From positions 1 through 64,000 of the forward strand of contig CATOSM010000002.1 in assembly GCA_951812645.1 (NCBI GenBank): a stretch of 64,000 bases of DNA. The letters are read 5' to 3'. The notes beneath the pieces are model-generated. The model was not told the origin of the DNA, ran no database searches, and saw only the letters and a program-made list of their open reading frames with translations. The translations under genes were made by a program, and so were the position numbers. Source of the DNA: an uncultured Candidatus Nitrosopumilus sp. (GTDB taxonomy: Archaea > Thermoproteota > Nitrososphaeria > Nitrososphaerales > Nitrosopumilaceae). Positions 8,306 through 35,704 of this stretch are shown here, piece by piece. Each line of letters begins with the position of its first letter. Position 1 is the first letter of the stretch.

Positions 8306-10816
8306 TCATACGAGGGGCCTGTCCCCATCTGTAGGATCTACCAATTCTGTTTTTTCGCCTTCATTAATTCTCTTGAGAATTTCCAATGCTGAACATTTGT
8401 GCAAATACTCGTTATTGTTACCACACCTGTATGAAAATGTGCATCTTGGACAACCCGACTCATTTTTGCATGGGCATTCTTTTACGATAAACATACTGCG
8501 TTCCAATGCCGTCTCAAATCGGTCATAGAGTGCTTTGCTTGCACCACTGCCCCCTATTGCCCCATCATAAACAAAAATCAAGCCTGACGTGCCTAGCGAA
8601 ATGCCCCCCAAATCCTGAGACACTCCGCCTGTTATCATATTGCTTCCCTCGATAACAACATGTTCTGTCGCATGATATCCGCTGGCTTCGGCATATTCAG
8701 GATCCTCTGATTCCTCAATCACTTTGAGAGGCCTTGGAGCATGAAATACAATTCCTTTAGTTGCAAAATCATATCCTAATGGCGTATCCAGATCTGCTTT
8801 TTCCCCTTGAGTTATTTCCTGACCTAGTTCAATGTTGACGTAACCATACACTTTTTTTTCAATATGTAATTTACAAAATGCCAGTTCTATTCCATTTGCA
8901 TTTCTTTTCTCAAAAACTGTTTCAATCGTTGGCCATTCTTCTGTCAATGCCTTTGTATAATACGGATAGTCTCTTGGAATTCTTTCTAATTTTGCATAGT
9001 TTTTTTCTGGATAATCGAATTCTTTGACTTTGTAGCGTATTCCAGCTAGAAAATAGATTGCATCTTTGTGCAGTTCTTCTAGTGCAATTGGTAAAACTCT
9101 GTCTCCCACTTTTTTTCCATCTAAGAAAATATCAACCGATTTTCCAATGCCTCTGATGCTGTATTCATCTAACATGGAGCTTATTTTGTCTAGATTTGGA
9201 ATTATTCTATTATTGAATTCTTTGAGATTTTCTTTGACGATGTGGCGCTCAATTATTTCTTGATGCTCTTTTAATTCATGTCTTGATATCGGCCTATCGC
9301 ATGCCATGGCCAACACTTGAAATTCTTCTACAAAGGGGTTTTTTGGATCGATGTATGTTTTTTCGATATCTTCAAAATAATCCTCTGGATGATTTTTGTA
9401 ATACTGTGATATCGGATCGTTTCCTAATGCCAAAAATGCATACCCCCTCTGTCCTTTCCTGGCTGCCCTTCCTATTCTCTGAATTAGCCGATTAACTGGA
9501 ATGGTTGATGATATTACACAGTCTACATTGCCCACATCTATCCCTAATTCAAGCGCGGGAGTGCATGAAATTGCTTGTAAGCTGTCTTCCTTGAATTGCC
9601 TTTCGACTGACATTCTATAATTTGCCATTAATCCGGCCCTGTGAACTTTGATGTTGACCTTTTGCTTTTTAGCCTGCATTGCTAGTAATTCTGAATTCAG
9701 ATGTGAACTGTTGAAAACCATCGTCTTGTGGTTTTTCTGGGTTAGTTTTTTTGTCAACTCTACCATTAAGGATCTCTGCGTTCGCAGTGATGGAAACAGC
9801 ATTGCAAAATCCGTCCGTCCTTTTTTTCCTGAACCCTGTATCTTTTGCATTTTTTCCCCGAATAATTTTTGACAAAATTCTTTTGCATCATCTAGAGTGG
9901 CCGACGCTGCAACAAATTGTAATTTGCCGGTGCAAATCCTTTTGAGTCTTTTTATGATATAGTGTACGTTTGATCCAAAAATTCCCGAGTACACATGTGC
10001 CTCGTCTATGACAAGAATTCTGGTTGACGTTAACAATGATGAGAATTTTGTCTGATGCCACATGTGATAATGCAATACATCAAAATTTGTAATTAGGATG
10101 CTTGGGGGATTATCTGTTATCCCTCTTCTTTCTTCCAGTTCTGTATCTCCGTCAAATACTCTGACGTTCACGTTTATTTTTTCTGCAAATTTTTGAATCT
10201 TTGGATACTGGTCTCGTGCCAATGCTTTTGTGGGATATACAAAGATTGCAAAGACATTCCCATCATTGGCGTCTTTTTTTATTCTTTGAATCACTGGAAT
10301 CAAAAATGCTTCTGTTTTTCCTGATGCAGTTGGTGCTTCAATTATCACATTTTCTCCAAACGTAATCTCCTCTATTGCTTCTTGTTGAAATTTATAAAAC
10401 TGCTCAATTTTTAATTCTCTGAGATGCTCTGTTATTGATTCATCCAATCCCAATTCTTCCACTTTACAGCCCATTTCAGGCTCGGGATTACTCAAAACCT
10501 TGTATTGTGAGACATAGTCTTTTTTTGAAAATAATATCTCTTCAGTGATTTTATCTGGATTGCTGTTTCCAATCATTTCCCTAATTTCATTTTCTCCTCT
10601 GACTATTCCCTCATCTCTTAGTCCTTCTGATAACCCTCCTTCTGTAACCAGTCCTTTGTCAAATCTTGATAGGAATTCTAGGAATACTTCGTCGGTATTT
10701 TTAGTAAATTCTAACAGATCCTCAATGCCGCATTTCTGACAGGAAACATGCATTTTTTTGTTGAATGTTTTTTGGATTTCAATTTTTGACTTGCATTTGG
10801 GACATGAAAACTTCAT
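8306..10816 (-). CDS. DEAD/DEAH helicase with C-terminal DUF1998 (MrfA/Hrq1-like)
   Basis: An 836-residue SF2 helicase. A zinc ribbon begins the protein (CPKCKSK...CQKCG). RecA domain 1 has APTASGKTEAF (Walker A) and IDEAHVYSG (Walker B); RecA domain 2 has TPALELGIDVGNVD and QRIGRAARKGQRG (motif VI). The C-terminal DUF1998 region carries a four-Cys cluster (CPCKNESGCPRC...C). This layout is that of the MrfA/Hrq1 family, 3'-5' helicases linked to repair of crosslinks and mitomycin damage; that role is inferred from family. It is divergent from the DNA methyltransferase at 10939 across a 122-base gap. Confidence 0.88.
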   Translation of the reverse strand: MKFSCPKCKSKIEIQKTFNKKMHVSCQKCGIEDLLEFTKNTDEVFLEFLSRFDKGLVTEGGLSEGLRDEGIVRGENEIREMIGNSNPDKITEEILFSKKDYVSQYKVLSNPEPEMGCKVEELGLDESITEHLRELKIEQFYKFQQEAIEEITFGENVIIEAPTASGKTEAFLIPVIQRIKKDANDGNVFAIFVYPTKALARDQYPKIQKFAEKINVNVRVFDGDTELEERRGITDNPPSILITNFDVLHYHMWHQTKFSSLLTSTRILVIDEAHVYSGIFGSNVHYIIKRLKRICTGKLQFVAASATLDDAKEFCQKLFGEKMQKIQGSGKKGRTDFAMLFPSLRTQRSLMVELTKKLTQKNHKTMVFNSSHLNSELLAMQAKKQKVNIKVHRAGLMANYRMSVERQFKEDSLQAISCTPALELGIDVGNVDCVISSTIPVNRLIQRIGRAARKGQRGYAFLALGNDPISQYYKNHPEDYFEDIEKTYIDPKNPFVEEFQVLAMACDRPISRHELKEHQEIIERHIVKENLKEFNNRIIPNLDKISSMLDEYSIRGIGKSVDIFLDGKKVGDRVLPIALEELHKDAIYFLAGIRYKVKEFDYPEKNYAKLERIPRDYPYYTKALTEEWPTIETVFEKRNANGIELAFCKLHIEKKVYGYVNIELGQEITQGEKADLDTPLGYDFATKGIVFHAPRPLKVIEESEDPEYAEASGYHATEHVVIEGSNMITGGVSQDLGGISLGTSGLIFVYDGAIGGSGASKALYDRFETALERSMFIVKECPCKNESGCPRCTFSYRCGNNNEYLHKCSALEILKRINEGEKTELVDPTDGDRPLV

Positions 10817-10938
10817 TTCTGTGTTTTAATGATATACATTCTAAATTTAATGATTAAAAACGCCTTCTATTTTGTAGATCTCTTTTTTCGATATTTTAAA
10901 ACAAAAGATTTAAAGCTCTGTTTAATCGTGATACTCTG

Positions 10939-12360
10939 ATGGCAAAGAAAAAATACGTTGTAAATGATATTATTCAAGCTGATAGTAATGAATTAACTAA
11001 ACACATTGAACCGGAAAGTGTTGCATTAACTATCACTTCTCCTCCTTACAGAAATGCCATAAATTACTCTCAACATGTAAAAAATGTTAAATCTAAAAAA
11101 AATACTAAATTCCGTGGCGATGTGGGCATTTCAACATCTGATTATCTTGATGAGATGGAGAAAATATTTTCTGAAGTTCTCAAAGTAACTATCCCTGGTG
11201 GATTTTGTTGTATCGTAATTGCTGATGAGATTGATAATGGTACTTTAATTCCATTACCTAGTTTACTAATTTCTCGTTTAGTAACTGAACACAAATCCGA
11301 GGATGGATGGAGATTTCGTGATATGATAATTTGGAACAAAGTTACAGCAGGTAGAAATGGTGCCGGAAATCGTTTTGGGATTTTTATTCAAAATCCATTA
11401 CCTTCCTATTATCGTTCTAATATCATGCATGAATATATCATAATTCTTGAAAAAGGATCCCAAAGGCGAATAATGGATAAGACAAAAACAAAAAAGATTC
11501 CACTAAACCGTGCTATGAAACGCCAAGTTTCACAATCTTTATGGGATTTACCTGTAGATGAGGCGGTAATTAAGGAATCTCAAAAATCGGTTTGGGATAT
11601 CACTCCTGTACCTCCTAGAGTTGTTGAACATCCTGCAGTTTTTCCGGAACAAATTCCCTGGAGATTAATTAATCTCTATTCAAAAGAAGGTGATGTGGTT
11701 TTAGATCCTATGAATGGAAGTGGACAAACTACTAAAATTGCAAATCAGCTTGAACGAAAATTTATTGGAATTGATAAAAGATTGCATTATGTTGAATTAG
11801 CAAAGAAAAGACTGACTGAACCCTTCATGCCTTCAAATTTCATGATTCCTATTTATCTTCCAATCAATTGGTCTGATTCTGAAGAATCTGGTAAAAAAAT
11901 TGATGCTCAATTGGATATTTCAAAAGTTCCTGCTGGTTTCAAATTTATTTTTTCTAAAGAATCTTCCAAAGAAGTTTTAGGAGTTCGAGGAAATTATCTA
12001 TATTATAAAAATAAAGATGGTGATTGGATTTGTTATATTATGGCAAGAAGTTCAAGACCCACGAGAATAAATATTGGAAATTTGTCTGATCCCAAATCTC
12101 CTTTAAGGGTTGTTTTAAAATCACTACCTTCAAACATATTTCATAAAGCACAATTGAATGAGATACTGCCACCTGGATTGGTTGAAAATAGACAGCCTAT
12201 CAAAGCTGTAATCGATGTATTAGAATATGAAAAATTCTTGAAGAAAACTGAAAAAAAATCAAAAACTGCTGAAATCTATGAGGTTATCATTCCTAAAAAA
12301 CATAAAAAATTGATTGCATATGTGCCAAAATCTGTTTTGAAAAAAGCAACTAAAAAATAG
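10939..12360 (+). CDS. DNA methyltransferase, SPPY class, with extra C-terminal domain
   Basis: A 473-residue AdoMet-dependent DNA methylase. Catalytic motif IV, TSPPY, is at residues 33-37 and the AdoMet motif DPMNGSGQT at about 254, i.e. the IV-before-I order of beta-class enzymes. SPPY is commoner in N4-cytosine than N6-adenine enzymes, so m4C is a reasonable guess. Residues ~295-473 are an additional domain I do not recognise, ending in a Lys-rich tail. A TATA-like AAGATTTAAAG lies about 28 bases before ATG. It is followed 80 bases later by a same-strand DGQHR/nuclease-like gene. Both are visibly more AT-rich than flanking core genes, suggesting acquisition as a pair. Confidence 0.85.
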   Translation: MAKKKYVVNDIIQADSNELTKHIEPESVALTITSPPYRNAINYSQHVKNVKSKKNTKFRGDVGISTSDYLDEMEKIFSEVLKVTIPGGFCCIVIADEIDNGTLIPLPSLLISRLVTEHKSEDGWRFRDMIIWNKVTAGRNGAGNRFGIFIQNPLPSYYRSNIMHEYIIILEKGSQRRIMDKTKTKKIPLNRAMKRQVSQSLWDLPVDEAVIKESQKSVWDITPVPPRVVEHPAVFPEQIPWRLINLYSKEGDVVLDPMNGSGQTTKIANQLERKFIGIDKRLHYVELAKKRLTEPFMPSNFMIPIYLPINWSDSEESGKKIDAQLDISKVPAGFKFIFSKESSKEVLGVRGNYLYYKNKDGDWICYIMARSSRPTRINIGNLSDPKSPLRVVLKSLPSNIFHKAQLNEILPPGLVENRQPIKAVIDVLEYEKFLKKTEKKSKTAEIYEVIIPKKHKKLIAYVPKSVLKKATKK

Positions 12361-12440
12361 TTTTTCCATTTTAATCGATCTAAATTAATTATAAATTCAG
12401 AACATATCACCTTATTTATTCATGATATTACAAAACTTTA

Positions 12441-14081
12441 ATGAAAAAAGAGTCTGAAACTAAAGATCATAAATCATTAAAAAAAACCATTAAAAAAATA
12501 TTAGATAACTCCGTTTTTGATGTAGTTGATACTGAAGTAAATATTGATATTGACAGTGATGGAAAACCTGAATTTTCTATTGATGCATGTGCGATTCATG
12601 ATAAAACTTTGTTAGTTTTCCAATGTAAAGATCGAAATAAAATTGCTAATATTAAAAAAGAATTGAATTCTACTAAAGAATACATTCGGAAGACAATCTC
12701 TAAAAAATTTTCAGTACTTGATAGCGATACAGGAAATATTTCTGATGAATCTCTTAAACAAATTACTACCATAAAATGTTGTTATGCATTTACTAAAAAA
12801 CTAAAAAATGATGATGCTGAAAAAGATGTTAAAACAGCAAAATTCATTTTTTGGGATGATTTAGCTGTAAAATATTATAGTCGAATTTCAGATATTTTAA
12901 AAGGCATTACTAAAAATGAACTTTTAAAAGAATTTGATATCAAATTTACCTCAAAAACCACTTATGAAGAAAATGCTATAGAAATCAAACAAGAAAATAA
13001 TGTGATGTATATGTTGGGAATGAATCCTGGTTTACTTTTAAAAATTGCATATGTTTTTAGACGAACTGGCAATAAACCTGAGGCATATCAGAGAATCATC
13101 ACCAAGGATCGTATTCAAAGTATTTCAAAATATTTTGGAGAATCTAAAAATCTTATGTTGCCAAATCCTGTAATTATTGTATTTGATAAAGATCCAAAAA
13201 TCCAACAAAAAATTAAATATAAAAAATCCAACAAAAAATTACAATTCCCTGTATCTTTCTGTTCAGCTTGGATTATTGACGGACAACATAGGATTTTTGG
13301 TTTCAAAGATCATGACACATACAAGAATTGGGATCCTAATAATGATGAAAATTTCAAAATACCTGTTATTGTTTTCAAAAATTTATCTTTTACCAATCAA
13401 AATAAAGCATTTGTAAATATCAATTATTATCAAAAACGAATCGATGCTGTTTTATTCAATGATTTAGCCACCATCATTCAAGATTTATCTCATGAAATTA
13501 CTTGGCCCAGCCTTCTAATTTCTGCATTAAATAAACGTCAACCTTGGAAAGATATGATTAAAATTTCTGAATTGGATACTGGAAAACCTATCACGATTTC
13601 AGGTTTTGCAAAAACTAAACTGCTTACAAAATTATTAGGATATAGTAAAAAAACTGGACAATACTCCGGTAATTTGTTTAATGTATCTCCATTTAACCCT
13701 AAAAAACCATTTACTCATGCAGATAATCAAACTTCATTTGATAAACAGCTTAAGATTCTAACAAGGTTTTTTGGAATTATCCGGGCAAAGGTAAAAAATT
13801 CTGATCCTGTCAAAGATAAATGGTTAAATTCTAAAGAATATGGGTTGACTAAATTCACGACTGTAAATGCATTGTTATTAGTTTTAGATTCCTTACTGGA
13901 AAAAGACCCCAAGCTTTCAATGGATTTAGATAAATGGTTATCATCTATAACATCTGTTAATTTCAAAAATGATAATCTGTTAAAATACGGTAGAGGGTAC
14001 CCTGCAATGCCAAAAATTGCCAACACTATAATCCGAAAAATGAATTCAGATCATGGAGCAAAATTAAATTTAGTTAAATAG
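12441..14081 (+). CDS. DGQHR-domain protein with PD-(D/E)XK-like N-terminus
   Basis: A 546-residue protein. The first ~100 residues look like a restriction-endonuclease fold: Asp48 (SIDACA), then a beta strand ending in VFQCKDR with Gln61-x-Lys63, i.e. D...QxK as in Mrr-like nucleases. Around residues 275-290 comes SAWIIDGQHRIFGF, the hallmark of the DGQHR/DndB family known from DNA phosphorothioation and 7-deazaguanine modification loci. The C-terminal third is helical with no further motif seen. It follows the methyltransferase by 80 bases. Together they suggest a modification-dependent defence module; activity and partner dependence are inference. No dndACDE-type genes are nearby. Confidence 0.75.
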   Translation: MKKESETKDHKSLKKTIKKILDNSVFDVVDTEVNIDIDSDGKPEFSIDACAIHDKTLLVFQCKDRNKIANIKKELNSTKEYIRKTISKKFSVLDSDTGNISDESLKQITTIKCCYAFTKKLKNDDAEKDVKTAKFIFWDDLAVKYYSRISDILKGITKNELLKEFDIKFTSKTTYEENAIEIKQENNVMYMLGMNPGLLLKIAYVFRRTGNKPEAYQRIITKDRIQSISKYFGESKNLMLPNPVIIVFDKDPKIQQKIKYKKSNKKLQFPVSFCSAWIIDGQHRIFGFKDHDTYKNWDPNNDENFKIPVIVFKNLSFTNQNKAFVNINYYQKRIDAVLFNDLATIIQDLSHEITWPSLLISALNKRQPWKDMIKISELDTGKPITISGFAKTKLLTKLLGYSKKTGQYSGNLFNVSPFNPKKPFTHADNQTSFDKQLKILTRFFGIIRAKVKNSDPVKDKWLNSKEYGLTKFTTVNALLLVLDSLLEKDPKLSMDLDKWLSSITSVNFKNDNLLKYGRGYPAMPKIANTIIRKMNSDHGAKLNLVK

Positions 14082-14096
14082 ATTTTTACATTTTAT

Positions 14097-14444
14097 TTAT
14101 CTTGTATTTTTAGATTCATCGGTTCTTTTTTGTCCAATTTTTGATGCGATACTTTCTCGTAGTTCACCATCTGTTCTGCCTTCAGTTTTCACTCCTGCTG
14201 ATCTTGCAATCGTTTCTAATTTCTCCCGTTCTGTTTCCACAGGGCCTGAAATTTTTGGTGCCTCTTCTGTCACCTCTTTCATCTGTTCTTGAATTTCATT
14301 TTTCGCTTTATTGTATTCGTTTACTGCCCTCCCCATTTTTTTAGCAGCCCCCGGTAGCTTGCCTGTCCCTAAAATCAAAACCAATGCTACAAAAATGATT
14401 ATCATCCATTCACTGCCGCCGATGTTCAGAGAACTTTCAACCAT
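14097..14444 (-). CDS. tatA: Sec-independent protein translocase TatA/TatE
   Basis: A 115-residue protein of the Tat export system. It has the TatA form: a short N-terminus, one membrane helix (residues ~12-28, WMIIIFVALVLILG), a hinge (GTGKLPGAAKKMGRA) and an amphipathic helix followed by a charged tail. TatA polymerises with TatC to carry folded proteins across the membrane; tatC is not in the window. It is convergent with the DGQHR gene (15-base gap). Confidence 0.9.
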   Translation of the reverse strand: MVESSLNIGGSEWMIIIFVALVLILGTGKLPGAAKKMGRAVNEYNKAKNEIQEQMKEVTEEAPKISGPVETEREKLETIARSAGVKTEGRTDGELRESIASKIGQKRTDESKNTR

Positions 14445-17414: not shown

Positions 17415-18125
17415 TCAAACACCTGCAAGCAGACTGTACAGCCGCACCTTTAATTCCAATTCCCTTATCAGGTATTTTTTCTTGTGAGACATGGCATGCT
17501 CACCAAACATTCCCTTAGGCGCCGAAAACACACATTCAGCAATCCAATGGTCCCCATGGCTCACGCCGTGCTTCCACACTCATAATTGAAAATTTGAGCT
17601 GGAACTCATTTCTTTCCTGGGGTGGCATTTTGTCTTGATTGATGATGTCTTTCCAACTAGTTATCGCTCTTATATCAAAAGAAGCCTCACAAGGTGGCAT
17701 TTTGTCTTGATTGATGATGTCTTTCCAACTAGTTATCGCTCTTATATCAAAAGAAGCCTCACAAGGTGGCATTTTGTCTTGATTGATGATGTCTTTCCAA
17801 CCTTGATTGCAGGCCGTACATTGGTATCGTAATACAGACATGGGGAATTATTTTCTGAATCATATGCGCCATCAGCTGGAACCTTGGTTACATTTGATTT
17901 GCACAATGCCTGCCCTACTAATTCTGGCAGACGTACAGCATCATGGGATGAACATCGGCAATTCTGAGTGAGACTGTTTTCTTGGCTTTAACATCGGCAC
18001 CAGCACGGATTTTTAGAAGTCCTTCTCTCATGTGCCATTTCTGTCTCATCAATTCACCCCTGCTTGCAACCCTGATTCCTGCACTGTCAATTGCCAGAAT
18101 GATTTCATTTTCTGAATCATTTGCA
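17415..18125 (-). pseudogene. Decayed DDE transposase (IS5/IS4-like, different from the local IS5 copies)
   Basis: The minus strand shows transposase segments in shifted frames: ILAIDSAGIRVASRGELMR and QKWHMREGLLKI (catalytic Asp region), then GAYDSENN and RPAIKVGKTSS, and lastly the C-terminal DHWIAECVFSAPKGMFGEHA. Frameshifts separate these, and a 72-bp tandem repeat has expanded inside the IKVGKTSS region. The 5' end is missing. Clearly non-functional. Confidence 0.7.
17621..17801. repeat. 72-bp direct tandem repeat, 2.5 copies
   Basis: The unit starts GGTGGCATTTTGTCTTGATT and begins at 17621, 17693 and 17765. The first two copies appear identical over 72 bases and the third covers the first 37. 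The length is a multiple of three, so a 24-residue repeat appears in open frames. It lies inside the decayed transposase. Confidence 0.9.
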
Positions 18126-18899: not shown

Positions 18900-20525
18900 A
18901 TGACAAAATTGACGACTATACAATATGCAATATTTATGATTGCAACACTGACCATACTGATTGCGGTACCTTCCGCGTATGCAGCCACAGTCAATGTGGA
19001 TGCATCATGTCAGGATGACGATGATGATGGCAGATGTAATGACGGAACGACATTCAAGAATCCTCGTACGGCATTTACGGCCGCAAATCGAGGCGATGTC
19101 ATAGTCATCGCCGATGGCAGATATCTTGACAGTGTGAATGATTACATTGTACTAAACAAACCTATCACACTAAAGTCTACAAATGGCGACCATGCCCAGG
19201 ATGACGTGATTTTTAACGGCACCGGAATCCGGATAAACGCAGACAATGTAAAGGTTCAGGGAATCGAGATTGTAGATGCGAGATCGCATGGAATATTTGT
19301 CGATCCGACCAGATCCAACATTGTTGTTGAGAACAACTACGTCAACAATACGCACAGATATGGCATAACAGGCGTTGGCAGCTCTGGTAATCCGCTATCG
19401 GTTAACATAATTGGCAATACCTTTGAGCATATCGGGTACAATGCACCTGATGGTAAAAAGCCGCTGTTTGCAAATGGCGACAAGGCCTCACAGCATGACA
19501 TGACTGCGATAATCTTTACGTGGCTTGCCAACTCTGAAATATCAGGAAACACGATTGACAAGACAACCTGGTCCGGAATAAACCTTGTTGACTCTTCTAC
19601 CATTTTGGTGAAGGATAATCTAATTAAGGATGTGCCAAAGAACGGAATCCAGATTGCGAAAATCGACAGTGTCAACAATACGATATCCGGCAACACCATA
19701 ATCAATGCAACCTTTGCCAATTCAACACATCGAGGCGGTGCCTTAATTGCAGACAATCTAAAGGGTGCAATCAGCCTTTCATCCTCGCTTGATACTCTGG
19801 TAGAGAATAATATTATCAGAGACAGCAGACACGGTATAATTCTATGTGATGGGGATTGCCATGCAACAACATTCGAGCCTGACACTTCTTCATATTCAGG
19901 CAAGCCTACTGCCAAGATAACAAAGAACACGTTTGACAATGTCCGAGGATTTGATATTATCAATGCCGTTGTAAATTATGTGCTTCCAGCCCCTCTGAAC
20001 TATTACGGGGATTCGCCTGACTTTGCCGCCGCCTTAAGCGGACCGGTACAGTATTCGCCGTACTATGCCGACTATGTCGGAGGTGAGATTCGCGCAATGG
20101 GGCCTGCCAAGCAGCAGTCACTTGCTGACGTACAGCGGACCGACATCTGCTCAATCGGCCTTGAAAGGTACAACCTGTACTTTGATGATGCCGCATGGGG
20201 AGCAGAATCCTCAGCAGAGAACAATGCCGTGCTCAACACCGGTGATATAGTACTTACCGGCGTGAAGATACAGACAGACGGATGGCTTGATGAGAAAGAC
20301 AATCCGGTAGCTGGGGCAAAGACCACAGTGGCTGACATACTTGTCGGCAACTTTTTGGACTTGCTAAGCACCAACGCTAACGGAGTTGACATGAATGCCA
20401 ACCTTCCGGCACCGGACACCGATGAAAAGCTGAATTTGCAGTTCACCCTTGACCTGACAGGCAAGGCAACCGGACCGGACAGTCAGATACGTGAAATAAT
20501 ATCATTTGCAGGTTCCTGCAGTTAG
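18900..20525 (+). CDS. Secreted right-handed beta-helix surface protein (paralogue 2)
   Basis: A 541-residue exported protein. The signal peptide (MTKLTTIQYAIF..., cut near SAYAA) is closely related to that of the 709 gene. A parallel beta-helix follows (about residues 50-370) with Asn-rich turns. The final domain runs from DICSIGLERYNLYF to the terminal Cys (SFAGSCS), sharing the two-Cys layout of the other paralogues but more diverged. The conserved upstream block seen before the 709 and 29440 genes is missing here except for the TATA box, so this copy split off earlier. The function is unknown; a cell-surface role is inferred. Confidence 0.8.
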   Translation: MTKLTTIQYAIFMIATLTILIAVPSAYAATVNVDASCQDDDDDGRCNDGTTFKNPRTAFTAANRGDVIVIADGRYLDSVNDYIVLNKPITLKSTNGDHAQDDVIFNGTGIRINADNVKVQGIEIVDARSHGIFVDPTRSNIVVENNYVNNTHRYGITGVGSSGNPLSVNIIGNTFEHIGYNAPDGKKPLFANGDKASQHDMTAIIFTWLANSEISGNTIDKTTWSGINLVDSSTILVKDNLIKDVPKNGIQIAKIDSVNNTISGNTIINATFANSTHRGGALIADNLKGAISLSSSLDTLVENNIIRDSRHGIILCDGDCHATTFEPDTSSYSGKPTAKITKNTFDNVRGFDIINAVVNYVLPAPLNYYGDSPDFAAALSGPVQYSPYYADYVGGEIRAMGPAKQQSLADVQRTDICSIGLERYNLYFDDAAWGAESSAENNAVLNTGDIVLTGVKIQTDGWLDEKDNPVAGAKTTVADILVGNFLDLLSTNANGVDMNANLPAPDTDEKLNLQFTLDLTGKATGPDSQIREIISFAGSCS

Positions 20526-28059: not shown

Positions 28060-28699
28060 CGGGCAGTTTCCGATGACCATTCGGACCTGTTCGTCGCCAA
28101 ACACAGCACGCTTTCATGAAATTTCAAGAACCAAAAGACTCGCAACGGAATGTCATTGTACCGCATCTGCCAAAACCTGCAAGAAATGGAAGGCCAGGAG
28201 GTGACGGCAGAACCGCAATCAACGCAATCATATTTGCACTGGCTACCGGTTGCAGGTGGGCTGACCTGCCTGCACAGTACGGTTCCAAACCATCAGCACA
28301 GAGAGGGTTCCAGGATCTGCAGAAGAGAGGAGTCTGGAAGAGGATTCTGTCTGAACTGATAAAATCTGCACACAGACAAGGCAAAACCCGCCTCCAAAAG
28401 ATATCCGTTGATTCATCATCCATCCATACAAAAACGGGCAACGTGACAGGATATGGCGGGTTCAGGAAGATTCCGCGCACAAAGATTCATGCCGCAGTAG
28501 AGAGCAGCGGATTGCCAATCTCAATTGCGTGCAGCCCTGCAAGCATTCATGACAGCACAAAATTTGCTGATGCCATCGAATCAGTTTCGGATTTTTTAGA
28601 TGGTGACGCAATTAATCAGATTGTGACAGCCTATGCAGACTATCCGGGATTGGTCTACTTGGCACGCATCACGATGTATTGGAGAGTATTGGGATGAGT
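28060..28699 (+). mobile_element. IS5-like element with internally deleted transposase
   Basis: A single 193-codon frame (28116-28697) fuses the transposase N-terminus and central catalytic part (GRPGGDGRTAINAI, GCRWADLPAQYG, VDSSSIHTKTGNVTGYGG, SIHDSTKFAD) directly to the extreme C-terminus (TMYWRVLG). Compared with the other copies about 75 residues between TAYAD and YPGLVYLA are missing, removing the last catalytic segment. The element end reads GTATTGGGATGAGTTG, so it belongs to a slightly different subtype from the 34.8, 52.9 and 60.6 kb copies. It cannot transpose by itself. Confidence 0.75.
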
Positions 28700-28967: not shown

Positions 28968-29340
28968 AAAAAAGAATAAACCGAAAAATCAAATTCTGAA
29001 TTTGCAAAAGCAACACGAAATACCACTGAACCAATTTAGCAGTTAATCTATTATCGGTAGATGGGAAAGTGCTCGATTCGGATCAAAAAAGCAGCAATCA
29101 TCTTCTCAAATTATTCAGACAGAAAAAGCTTGATGAAAGTGTGCCGTCCCATCAGGCGTGAATCATTCTACAATTATCAATCTTAGATACGAATAGCGTG
29201 ACACAGGAAACATTTGAAAAGATGCATCAAACACTACACAAATAACACGAAAAAGGCTGGGATGCTTGTAACTTCAGTTACCGTGGAAATTGACAAGCCA
29301 AGCAATCCAAGACATTTCTGGCCGGGGCAAAACCCGCAAT
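28968..29340. other. Gene-free stretch
   Basis: No gene or RNA is recognised. The last part of the region leads into a block of about 85 bases (from ~29346) that is nearly identical to 625-708 upstream of the first beta-helix gene. Confidence 0.4.
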
Positions 29341-29409
29341 CCCGGACAGATCAGGCCGGAATGCACCCGCAGCTGGGCCAAAAACAAACGGCCTCTGCGG
29401 AACCAACGG

Positions 29410-29417
29410 TTTATTAA
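29410..29417 (+). promoter_or_regulatory. TATA box for beta-helix paralogue 3
   Basis: TTTATTAA is centred about 27 bases before ATG 29440, as in the two other full-length paralogues. Confidence 0.6.
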
Positions 29418-29439
29418 CCCCACTGATCACATGTATTCC

Positions 29440-31161
29440 ATGAAAAAATTGACCGCCTTACAATATACGATATTTATGGTTGCCGCACTGACCATCCTGA
29501 TTACGGTGCCTTCCGCATATGCTGCCACGCTTGTCCTGGATGCATCATGTCCCAACAAGAACGAGGCCAATGGAACATGTCGGGCTCCTGATGACGGAAA
29601 ATATATCTGGCTAATGCCCGCAATTAGAAACGCACAACCGGGTGATACCATATCCATCCTAAATGGAACTTATGATAAGGATCGTAACCAAATAGTAATC
29701 AGCAAGCCGTTGACAATCCAGTCTGCATCTGCAAGCGACAGGGTGACCTTTAGCGGACCGGTCAATCTCAGAATATCTTCCGATGATGTTACCATAAAAG
29801 GCATTACCTTTAAGAATACCACAAAAAATGTGCCTAGCACCGATACCCCTGCACCTGTAATTACCCTTGCCAACGGCCTGTCTGACGTAACAATACACAA
29901 CAACACGTTTAGGGATACCAACGGACACGGAATAAGAATCGAACTAAGGCCGCAAACTCCATTACCAATGGAAAACCTGACCGTGTCAGACAATGTGTTT
30001 AAGAACATTGGAACATTTACTGCGCCACATCATCCTTGGAGGGCCGAAAAAAACTTTACTGCAATACACCTTGTTGGTAACCATGCAGGCCCGGCCTTGG
30101 GAATAAACAATTCCAAAATTATCGGCAACACCATTGATACTACGACAGGTTACGGGATAGGCCTGGGCAATGCCAAAAATATCCTGGTGCAAAACAACAC
30201 AATCTCAAACGTTCCTGCAAATGGAATTCAAGTTGCATTAGGCGGCGACAATATAAAGATCCTCGACAATCGCATACATAACGCAAACTCCGCAGTAGGG
30301 CATAACCAAGTCCCTGAAGACGAACGCAAGGGAGGAGCCGTTGTCTTTTGGACGGCAGGCGGCCTGACCAACATTGTCTTTAGCAACAACACCATCTCTG
30401 GCGGCAACAACGGGCTTGTCTATTGTGGAGGAATATGTAAGGGAGTAAATCTGCGTCTTTTGGCAGATGCCAGAAATAATTTGGACGCACTCAATGCAAC
30501 ACGGGATACCGACAGGACAAACACGTTTACCCATAACACCTTTGACAACGTAAAGGGCTTTGACATTGTCAATACGGCACTTGGCACGCTGGTTGCAACC
30601 AACAACTATCACGGAGAGGCAGAGCCTGACTTTACAAAAATATTGGACGGCGACATACGCTACAATCCCTACTATAATGATCCGGAACGCAGGGTGCTGG
30701 TAGATGACGGCAAGGGGCCGGTACAAAAGTCAACTGCACAGCTTGACGTATCACCGGTGTGTTCCATATCCCTTGGAAGCTACATCATGGACTTTGCAGA
30801 CGCAAAATACGGCGCCACGTCCAGTATTGTAGAAAACCAAATCAAAAATGCCGGCAACCGGGATCTTGATGCAATAAAGTTTACCTCTACCGGATGGGAA
30901 AAGCCTGACGGCTCTGCCCTTCCTGATGCCGTATCCAGGGTCGGCACCGATGTCACCAGTTCGGCATCCTATGCCCCCATCACCACTGCTCCGGCCGGCA
31001 TCAACTTTGACAATCGCAACTTTACCGGATCAAACGCGCTTCCAGGCCCAAGTTCCTCCGACTCTGCACGGGTCGGCTTTGTGCTTGACCTTACCGGCGT
31101 TGCAACGGGTGCCGATGTCACCATCACGGAATCCGTAACGTACTCTGCAACCTGCAGCTAG
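29440..31161 (+). CDS. Secreted right-handed beta-helix surface protein (paralogue 3)
   Basis: A 573-residue exported protein from ATG 29440 (MKKLTALQYTIF...). The signal peptide ends near SAYAA. A parallel beta-helix with Asn-ladder rungs covers about residues 60-380, and the C-terminal ~150 residues (PVCSISLGSY through YSATCS) are very close to those of the 709 gene and the 23450 fragment, while the middle is clearly more diverged. The frame is open far upstream (to 29290) through non-coding-like sequence; the TATA position and paralogue alignment fix the start. Patchwise similarity suggests gene conversion between copies. The function is unknown. Confidence 0.8.
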   Translation: MKKLTALQYTIFMVAALTILITVPSAYAATLVLDASCPNKNEANGTCRAPDDGKYIWLMPAIRNAQPGDTISILNGTYDKDRNQIVISKPLTIQSASASDRVTFSGPVNLRISSDDVTIKGITFKNTTKNVPSTDTPAPVITLANGLSDVTIHNNTFRDTNGHGIRIELRPQTPLPMENLTVSDNVFKNIGTFTAPHHPWRAEKNFTAIHLVGNHAGPALGINNSKIIGNTIDTTTGYGIGLGNAKNILVQNNTISNVPANGIQVALGGDNIKILDNRIHNANSAVGHNQVPEDERKGGAVVFWTAGGLTNIVFSNNTISGGNNGLVYCGGICKGVNLRLLADARNNLDALNATRDTDRTNTFTHNTFDNVKGFDIVNTALGTLVATNNYHGEAEPDFTKILDGDIRYNPYYNDPERRVLVDDGKGPVQKSTAQLDVSPVCSISLGSYIMDFADAKYGATSSIVENQIKNAGNRDLDAIKFTSTGWEKPDGSALPDAVSRVGTDVTSSASYAPITTAPAGINFDNRNFTGSNALPGPSSSDSARVGFVLDLTGVATGADVTITESVTYSATCS

Positions 31162-34829: not shown

Positions 34830-35704
34830 AACTTATCCTAAAACCCTCCAATACATCATGACGCATGCCAGATACACAAATCCAAGACAGTTGTCACAGT
34901 TCCTTTCGTACCTGACTGCCGTCCCGTGAAGCCCGCACCTGGGCCAGGCAAGGAACCGCTCTACGACAAACCTTGTCTTGCCATAATGCTTTTGATTCCT
35001 GTTTTGTGCAACGTTCCTTGAGTTCCTTTTGTATGGAATGCAACGGTCAATCCCATGGGATCTCAGATAGTCTCTGATGTATGCCGCATCGTATCCCCTG
35101 TCGGCATACGCTGAGATGATCTCCCGTATCAAACCGTCACCTGCAGGTTCTGAGATGTTCTCCAACACATCAATGAATTTCGTACTGTCATGGACATTTG
35201 CAGGGCTGGACCTGATTGGGATTGGCAGTCCTGTCCCGTCTACTGCAGCGTGAATCTTTGTGCCCAGGATCTTCCTGAACCCGTCATATCCTGTTTTGTC
35301 CCCCCTTTTTTGGCGGCAATTGACGATGAATCAATCGATATTTTTCCAGGCTGGTTTTTCCCTGCCTGTGTGCGGATTTTATCAGTCCTGACAGAATCCT
35401 TTTCCATATTCCCTTTTGCCGCAGCTCTGAGAATCTCAGATGCGCGGTGGATTTTGAACCGTATCTGTCCGGCATGTCTGCCCACCTGCAGCCGGTTGTT
35501 AGGACAAACAATATTCCGTTGATTGTGTTTCTGTCATTGCATCCTGGCCTTCCGGTTTTTGCAGGCTTTGGGAGATGTGATGCAACCGTCTTCCATTGAG
35601 TGTCTGACATTTCTTTGTGAATCATGAAAGATACGTCAGCAGGGTCATTCTTAGATCCCGATTGTCATGAATTGTTTACAAAATGATCGGTTTTAGGATG
35701 AGTT
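34830..35704 (-). mobile_element. IS5-family element, full length, copy A
   Basis: 875 bp bounded by AACTTATCCTAAAACC and GGTTTTAGGATGAGTT (one mismatch in the inverted repeat). The transposase is in two frames: ORF1 (MIHKEMSDTQW..., start 35625) and ORF2 (DGFRKILGTKIH...MMYWRVLG, ending 34833), meeting at A6G6 near 35306-35317, where a -1 slip would join them. ORF1 has lost one T (in the run 35340-35345) relative to copy B and is frameshifted before the slip site, so the copy is probably inactive. It interrupts a cupredoxin gene. Confidence 0.85.

Follow-up and report, generated by a model that had tools for sequence, protein, structure and literature searches.

DndI is composed of a ParB-fold DGQQR ATPase domain and an HNH nuclease, and it spares modified DNA after ATP hydrolysis but nicks unmodified DNA (PMC11662687). 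The DUF262 domain is a relative of the DGQHR domain (PMC4619093), DndB is described as an ATP-dependent repressor of the dnd genes (PMC10853773), and a 2025 survey of ParB-fold proteins describes ATP and GTP binding by a DndB-like protein (PMC12704722). A 2013 HEPN survey lists a ParB-HEPN protein (Saro_3948) and HEPN genes in an operon with ParB nuclease and DNA methylase genes (PMC3710099). Here, we analyze a two-gene cassette in a 64,000-nucleotide stretch of DNA from an uncultured Candidatus Nitrosopumilus sp. (the window: positions 1 to 64,000 of contig CATOSM010000002.1, our contig C2 of source assembly G000, which comprises 2.2 Mb in seven contigs with an estimated contamination of 8.8%). 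The cassette encodes a DNA methyltransferase (MTase) and a protein that joins a predicted PD-(D/E)xK nuclease-fold domain to a DGQHR domain. We put at roughly two in three the probability that these genes form a compact, methylation-based restriction-modification (R-M) system.

The pair resembles DndI and SspE in that a ParB-fold DGQ-R domain of the nucleoside triphosphatase (NTPase) type is joined to a nuclease or predicted nuclease and encoded with a DNA-modification module. However, the nuclease of those proteins is of the HNH type and C-terminal, their motif is DGQQR and the modification is phosphorothioation, whereas the window pair combines a predicted N-terminal PD-(D/E)xK domain, DGQHR and a methylase. 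GmrSD and BrxU (DUF262 plus DUF1524) likewise unite a ParB/sulfiredoxin (Srx) NTPase domain with a nuclease, but the window protein lacks DUF1524/HNH, and a methylase partner is the rule in the nuclease-DGQHR family. The HEPN survey had already noted such ParB-fold proteins in the company of HEPN domains and methylases; its accessible parts make no mention of an N-terminal PD-(D/E)xK domain, archaeal members or pairing with several methylase classes (PMC3710099).

Gene content of the cassette

The two open reading frames (ORFs) lie on the same strand, separated by 80 bp, and contain the following features (lengths in amino acids, aa).

10939..12360, + strand: gene for a beta-class DNA methyltransferase, 473 aa (TSPPY; PADLOC MTase_II, E = 7.4e-61)
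11020..11808, + strand: catalytic methyltransferase domain, residues 28-290 (Pfam PF01555)
11836..12357, + strand: MTase C-terminal domain, residues 300-473 (aligns with a stand-alone gene of 215-226 aa)
12441..14081, + strand: gene for the PD-(D/E)xK-DGQHR protein, 546 aa, candidate restriction component (Pfam, TIGR03187, AlphaFold, Foldseek)
12441..12950, + strand: predicted PD-(D/E)xK nuclease-fold domain (N domain), residues 1-170 (AlphaFold, Foldseek, hhalign)
12582..12629, + strand: putative catalytic residues D48 (12582-12584), Q61 (12621-12623) and K63 (12627-12629) (27-relative alignment)
12975..13895, + strand: DGQHR (ParB/sulfiredoxin-fold) domain, residues 179-485 (TIGR03187; Foldseek PadC and sulfiredoxin)
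13278..13292, + strand: DGQHR motif, residues 280-284, with YQR at 216-218 and F324xxxN328

All the motifs named in the original prediction, i.e., TSPPY and DPMNGSGQT in the MTase and D48, Q61-C-K63 and IIDGQHRIFGF in the second protein, are present. The pair had also been described as richer in AT than the flanking genes, and its GC contents (0.321 for the MTase and 0.278 for the DGQHR protein) are indeed the lowest two among the 57 window ORFs (mean, 0.407; standard deviation, 0.048). Recent import was considered as an explanation and rejected, since the orphan methylase that fills the same chromosomal position in a relative (locus L099) is equally AT-rich (GC, 0.298). The usual dnd and dpd partners, claimed to be missing, were not recognized among the nine flanking proteins; the remaining genome was not searched for them.

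The DGQHR protein scored 127.3 bits against TIGR03187 over residues 179-485 (cut-off, 58.85) and 48.3 against 29.1 for Pfam DndB. YQR and DGQHR are invariant in 27 of 27 relatives and FxxxN is kept in nearly all; the window protein retains the three motifs. Foldseek matched the middle domain to PadC, which is ParB-like, and to sulfiredoxin. The protein thus has its DGQHR domain in common with DndB and DpdB, but it falls far under the equivalog cut-offs (59.8 against 450 for the Dnd-associated TIGR04172, with TIGR03233 not reported, and 70.2 against 300 for the NCBIfam DpdB model), carries an extra nuclease-like domain and has no recognized dnd or dpd genes alongside. Pfam searches of this protein found no match to DUF262 or to the DUF1524/HNH domains of GmrSD, DndI and SspE. 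Judged by these profile scores, it fits no curated DndB, DpdB or GmrSD family.

A predicted nuclease fold at the N terminus of the DGQHR protein

Residues 1-170 of the window protein yielded no direct match in Pfam, NCBIfam, PADLOC or PHROGs, and none in a sequence search of the PDB. Initial searches for relatives with the window protein or a two-sequence alignment, covering genome contigs and first pattern scans of viral contigs, found none; relatives were gathered from genomes of the family (250) and of the phylum (398) and from viral contigs. AlphaFold given five sequences returned a useless model (predicted local distance difference test [pLDDT], 40), and the model of residues 1-360 from a 15-sequence alignment was taken (pLDDT, 76.7; predicted template modeling score, 0.80). 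Its order of elements in the N domain (helix 8-23, strands 28-36, 45-53 and 56-63, helix 69-87, and strand 110-117) is that of a restriction-endonuclease core, corresponding to the alpha-beta-beta-beta-alpha-beta arrangement of the PD-(D/E)xK superfamily. The best Foldseek matches in the PDB included Can2 (probability, 1.00), VC1899, Card1, Cdn1, AF1548, R2 and McrBC nucleases, all of which we take to be PD-(D/E)xK enzymes.

The Foldseek E-values were modest (best, 0.0077), and profile evidence therefore matters. In hhalign comparisons, the N-domain profile reached 88% and 64% with two Mrr_cat sets, and 30% and 0.1% with two Hjc sets; none of eight unrelated controls exceeded 0.3%. Single relatives gave weak matches to Pfam Card1_endonuc (0.005), Hjc (0.075), HSDR_N_2 (0.065) and UPF0102 (0.008) and to PADLOC CARF_PDDEXK (0.002), while Hjc and AF1548 were among five sub-threshold matches of hmmsearch against the PDB. 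The CRISPR ancillary nucleases Can2 and Card1, together with Mrr and Hjc, are the closest solved or profiled relatives of this fold; the window protein differs from Can2 and Card1 in having neither a CARF domain nor a CRISPR link. Collectively, structure prediction and profile comparison support a PD-(D/E)xK fold well, so that the nuclease-like N terminus of the original prediction withstood a comparison set in advance as its possible refutation.

Nuclease-DGQHR proteins recur beside methylases of several classes

We defined proteins with the N domain as those whose DGQHR motif lies at least 240 residues in. A DNA methylase occurs within two genes at 22 of the 25 such loci with readable context, a count that was made with small home-made methylase hidden Markov models, leaves out a subfamily B (G156, G027 and G196), counts related loci separately and carries the bias of the viral collection. 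All six archaeal loci are paired: the partner is N6_N4 in the window, D12 in G216, a convergent N6_N4 gene in G507, C5 in G393, a DUF1156 methylase preceded by DUF499 in G297, and an SPPY methylase two ORFs away in G759. Pairing extends to 16 of 19 bacterial loci, eight with D12 (several overlapping), seven with SPPY and one with a large methylase at a contig edge. The bacterial SPPY pairs, spaced by 0-25 bp, come from five viral-collection contigs and from complete plasmids of Phyllobacterium zundukense and Rhizobium ruizarguesonis; searches of Escherichia coli DNA turned up none of the bacterial pairs. Short DGQHR proteins without the N domain are not methylase neighbors (0 of 29 have a directly adjacent methylase, although in a few cases one lies two to six genes off), which indicates that the N domain is what accompanies the methylase.

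The partner class varies among SPPY N4/N6, D12, C5 and DUF1156, and a tree of 27 proteins requires at least seven changes of class. The window protein and that of G216 are sisters (support, 100/99), and their partner methylases belong to different classes. Mere chance neighborhood within a defence-gene hotspot is hardly credible as an explanation. It could appeal to the chromosomal slot described below, which in relatives also hosts orphan methylases and other R-M genes and where any defence gene might land, but the pairing is repeated in distant archaea, rhizobial plasmids and prophage-like contigs, at 0-25 bp or with overlap, and the 0 of 29 among short forms argues likewise. The expectation that the two genes would co-occur in other genomes held for the kinds of protein, which recur together in archaea and bacteria, but not for strict orthologues: those of the window MTase have other neighbors, and a D12 methylase accompanies the closest relative of the DGQHR protein. 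This co-occurrence and the nuclease-fold prediction support the earlier proposal of a compact modification-defence pair.

Several loci deserve separate mention. In L051, L052 and L062, bacterial nuclease-DGQHR proteins lie by B12/radical-SAM genes, the first two also with a second DGQHR protein and with ATP-binding and PIN-like genes; this neighborhood is possibly an uncharacterized DNA-modification defence cluster. L025, L026 and L027 hold a separate archaeal nuclease-DGQHR subfamily (GEID...IEV) with no methylase nearby, and a HEPN-like gene follows the protein of L027. At L192 (3884-5710; NZ_CP017943.1), a PLSDB resistance gene prediction, 'lmrP', overlies a DGQHR gene and is very likely a false annotation.

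The cassette occupies a methylase-exchange slot

Two genes outside the system border the cassette.

8306..10816, - strand: MrfA-like SF2 helicase, left slot edge, conserved in the genus
14097..14444, - strand: tatA, right slot edge

The neighborhood is core archaeal, including a proteasome subunit, tatA and the SF2 helicase (up to ~92% identity with other genus members); the helicase matches many defence helicases solely via its generic SF2 domain. A sigma-70 promoter scan was uninformative, the host being an archaeon. The slot between helicase and tatA (window 10817-14096; compare L099, 4091-4879) usually contains a 262-aa TDPPF orphan methylase, which has a strong full-length match in 78 of 95 genus genomes and lies beside the helicase wherever its position was compared (five loci read directly). 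No methylase fills the slot in G107, G108 and G110, whereas G093 carries another SPPY methylase and a 222-aa protein. On contig C16 of G132, which starts inside the helicase, the order is MTase, 222-aa protein, tatA and MFS, and this MTase is 66% identical to that of the window, with the same C-terminal domain. Orthologous MTases in one slot are thus accompanied by the DGQHR protein in the window and by the 222-aa protein in G132. The slot is a methylase-exchange site, with an orphan methylase in most of the genus and, in G132, G093 and the window, complete candidate R-M pairs.

The 222-aa protein adjoins SPPY methylases also in G179 and lies near one at another locus of G000. It has a conserved DYQR...WDLK segment, no match in Pfam, PADLOC or the PDB, and no hhalign similarity to the N domain; its context and this motif suggest that it is probably a conventional restriction enzyme. 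Because G132 has this candidate restriction gene next to its MTase, the DGQHR protein sits at the place expected for a restriction enzyme. The window pair shares slot, two-gene layout and, with G132, an orthologous MTase with these presumed classical type II pairs, but its second gene encodes a protein of 546 aa and two domains, one of them of the NTP-binding type.

This arrangement bears on a type IV-like alternative, in which the DGQHR-nuclease would attack foreign-modified DNA as GmrSD does, the methylase being separate or protective. The kinship of the DGQHR domain with DUF262 of the modification-dependent GmrSD (PMC4619093), and the place of the N-domain kin Mrr and McrC among modification-dependent enzymes, speak for it. 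Yet the tight, often overlapping linkage to unrelated methylase classes better fits a cognate R-M partner, as does the replacement of a candidate restriction gene beside an orthologous MTase, and self-methylation would need to be invisible to the DGQHR protein. We consider this alternative unlikely.

Members of the ~220-aa DYQR...WDLK family, probably an undescribed restriction endonuclease family, lie beside or near SPPY methylases at L032 (1607-2275), L128 (7009-7677), L038 (6288-6959) and L039 (10912-11571). Of the orphan methylase, G000 itself keeps only a truncated relic, which lies beside a transposase-like ORF (contig C1, 1803998-1804189; L138). Elsewhere in the window, secreted-type look-alike proteins that start with VDxSCxDxDDDxxxC are encoded at 700-2364, 18900-20525 and 29290-31161 (on another contig, at L138, 6248-8035), with transposase-like ORFs nearby (28116-28697 and 34833-35625), and a perfect 72-bp tandem repeat of 2.5 copies (17621-17801) lies within the ORF at 17536-17841.

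Putative active site and regulatory or abortive alternatives

In the alignment of 27 relatives, the position of D48 is aspartate in 25, and the position two before the lysine is E, Q or D in all 27. Lysine is found at the K63 position in the window protein, that of G216 and most D12-paired forms; the remaining forms have T, S, N, R, F or A there. A QxK pattern is seen as well among Hjc matches from related genomes (VQVK). From this residue pattern, nuclease activity of the window protein is plausible.

The same variability lends some weight to the DGQHR protein being a regulator that, like DndB, depends on NTP, controls the methylase gene or its activity and has a degenerate nuclease fold that binds DNA. 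DndB is described as an ATP-dependent repressor (PMC10853773), the catalytic lysine is not conserved and the window protein has Q for E. Nonetheless, even very distant members almost always keep D48 and the E/Q position, the short DGQHR proteins lacking the N domain are not the methylase neighbors, and the C-terminal HEPN-like domains of long forms suit an effector. A regulatory role therefore has little credence with us.

Those HEPN-like domains, which G507, G759, pNL1 and further long relatives carry, together with a HEPN-like gene next to G196, could instead point to an abortive or DNA-damage effector: self DNA would be marked by the methylase, and infection or a loss of methylation would release the DGQHR protein to degrade DNA indiscriminately and kill the cell. 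The HEPN region does not fit into proteins as short as that of the window (546 aa) and the SPPY-paired forms, however, and many cognate R-M enzymes are equally self-poisoning, so that this alternative overlaps with the R-M interpretation. We regard it as quite improbable for the cassette; the HEPN-like domains hint at a suicidal back-up in some long relatives but not in the window protein.

Several observations weigh against the cassette being an R-M system. Its motif is QxK, not ExK, making D48/Q61/K63 a non-standard set, and where relatives have a glutamate in alpha-1, the window protein has lysine. The catalytic lysine is most often replaced in the very clade paired with SPPY methylases, and because it varies, a different residue may serve in some family members, or these may lack activity. 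The exact orthologous MTase/DGQHR pair was found in no other genome, the three unpaired bacterial loci adjoin B12/radical-SAM genes, and subfamily B has no methylase within eight ORFs. Finally, the swap partner in the slot, the 222-aa protein, is itself only a candidate restriction enzyme.

The methyltransferase and its C-terminal domain

Residues 28-290 of the MTase match Pfam N6_N4_Mtase (PF01555; E = 2e-36), the order TSPPY then DPMNGSGQT is that of the beta class, and the PADLOC MTase_II match places the protein among stand-alone methyltransferases of the type II kind. TSPPY is commoner in N4-methylcytosine (m4C) than in N6-methyladenine (m6A) enzymes and is no proof of specificity.

Residues 300-473 have no family match in Pfam and no sequence match in the PDB, in line with the earlier description of this domain as unassigned. 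Alignments reveal the same domain as a separate gene of 215-226 aa beside ~300-aa SPPY methylases in G000 (contig C1), G179 and G151, and it is accordingly read as a module of this methylase lineage that is fused in the window protein, perhaps with a DNA-binding or control function. We set it aside as the missing nuclease: no nuclease motif was seen, and sister methylases have it as a separate gene beside them. The earlier description is amended to this extent, i.e., to a methylase module and no nuclease candidate. Stand-alone C-domain genes are convergent to ~300-aa SPPY methylases at L038 (8726-9373), L039 (9172-9852) and L040 (1255-1911), and a second, degenerate methylase-like gene lies near them in L038 and L040.

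Proposed mechanism

In the proposed R-M system, the MTase would methylate a host sequence, probably yielding m4C, and the N-terminal PD-(D/E)xK domain would cut or nick DNA. The ParB/Srx-type DGQHR domain would bind or hydrolyze NTP and gate the nuclease depending on methylation, which would protect the methylated DNA of the host and expose unmethylated DNA that enters the cell to attack. That the DGQHR protein cleaves DNA, uses NTP and is gated by methylation, and that the pair defends against viruses or plasmids, is what we infer. By analogy, we propose a logic like that of DndI, except that the mark would be methylation and the nuclease would be of the PD-(D/E)xK type. Going further, the nuclease might read methylation via its NTP-gated DGQHR domain, not sequence, and thus plug into unrelated methylase classes (m4C/m6A beta-class, D12 m6A, 5-methylcytosine and DUF1156), an idea that we hold as tentative and rather doubtful.

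Significance

The curated libraries contain no model for the nuclease-DGQHR architecture, and the DGQHR domain model alone passes its NCBIfam cut-off. Within the titles and abstracts of the open-access DGQHR literature, which exclude subscription papers and REBASE, the pairing is undescribed. If the R-M interpretation is correct, the cassette would represent a two-gene R-M type spread across archaea and bacteria and unnamed in the libraries used, which register no more than a 'DGQHR domain' and a 'type II methylase'. The DndI/SspE principle of a ParB-fold NTPase that recognizes modified self DNA and governs a nuclease would then apply to ordinary base methylation as well as to phosphorothioation, and it would become testable how one nuclease family works with unrelated methylase classes. 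The simple two-gene versions on rhizobial plasmids are tractable for such tests in laboratory strains. For marine ammonia-oxidizing archaea, the analysis identifies a chromosomal slot where an orphan methylase is swapped for whole candidate restriction systems.

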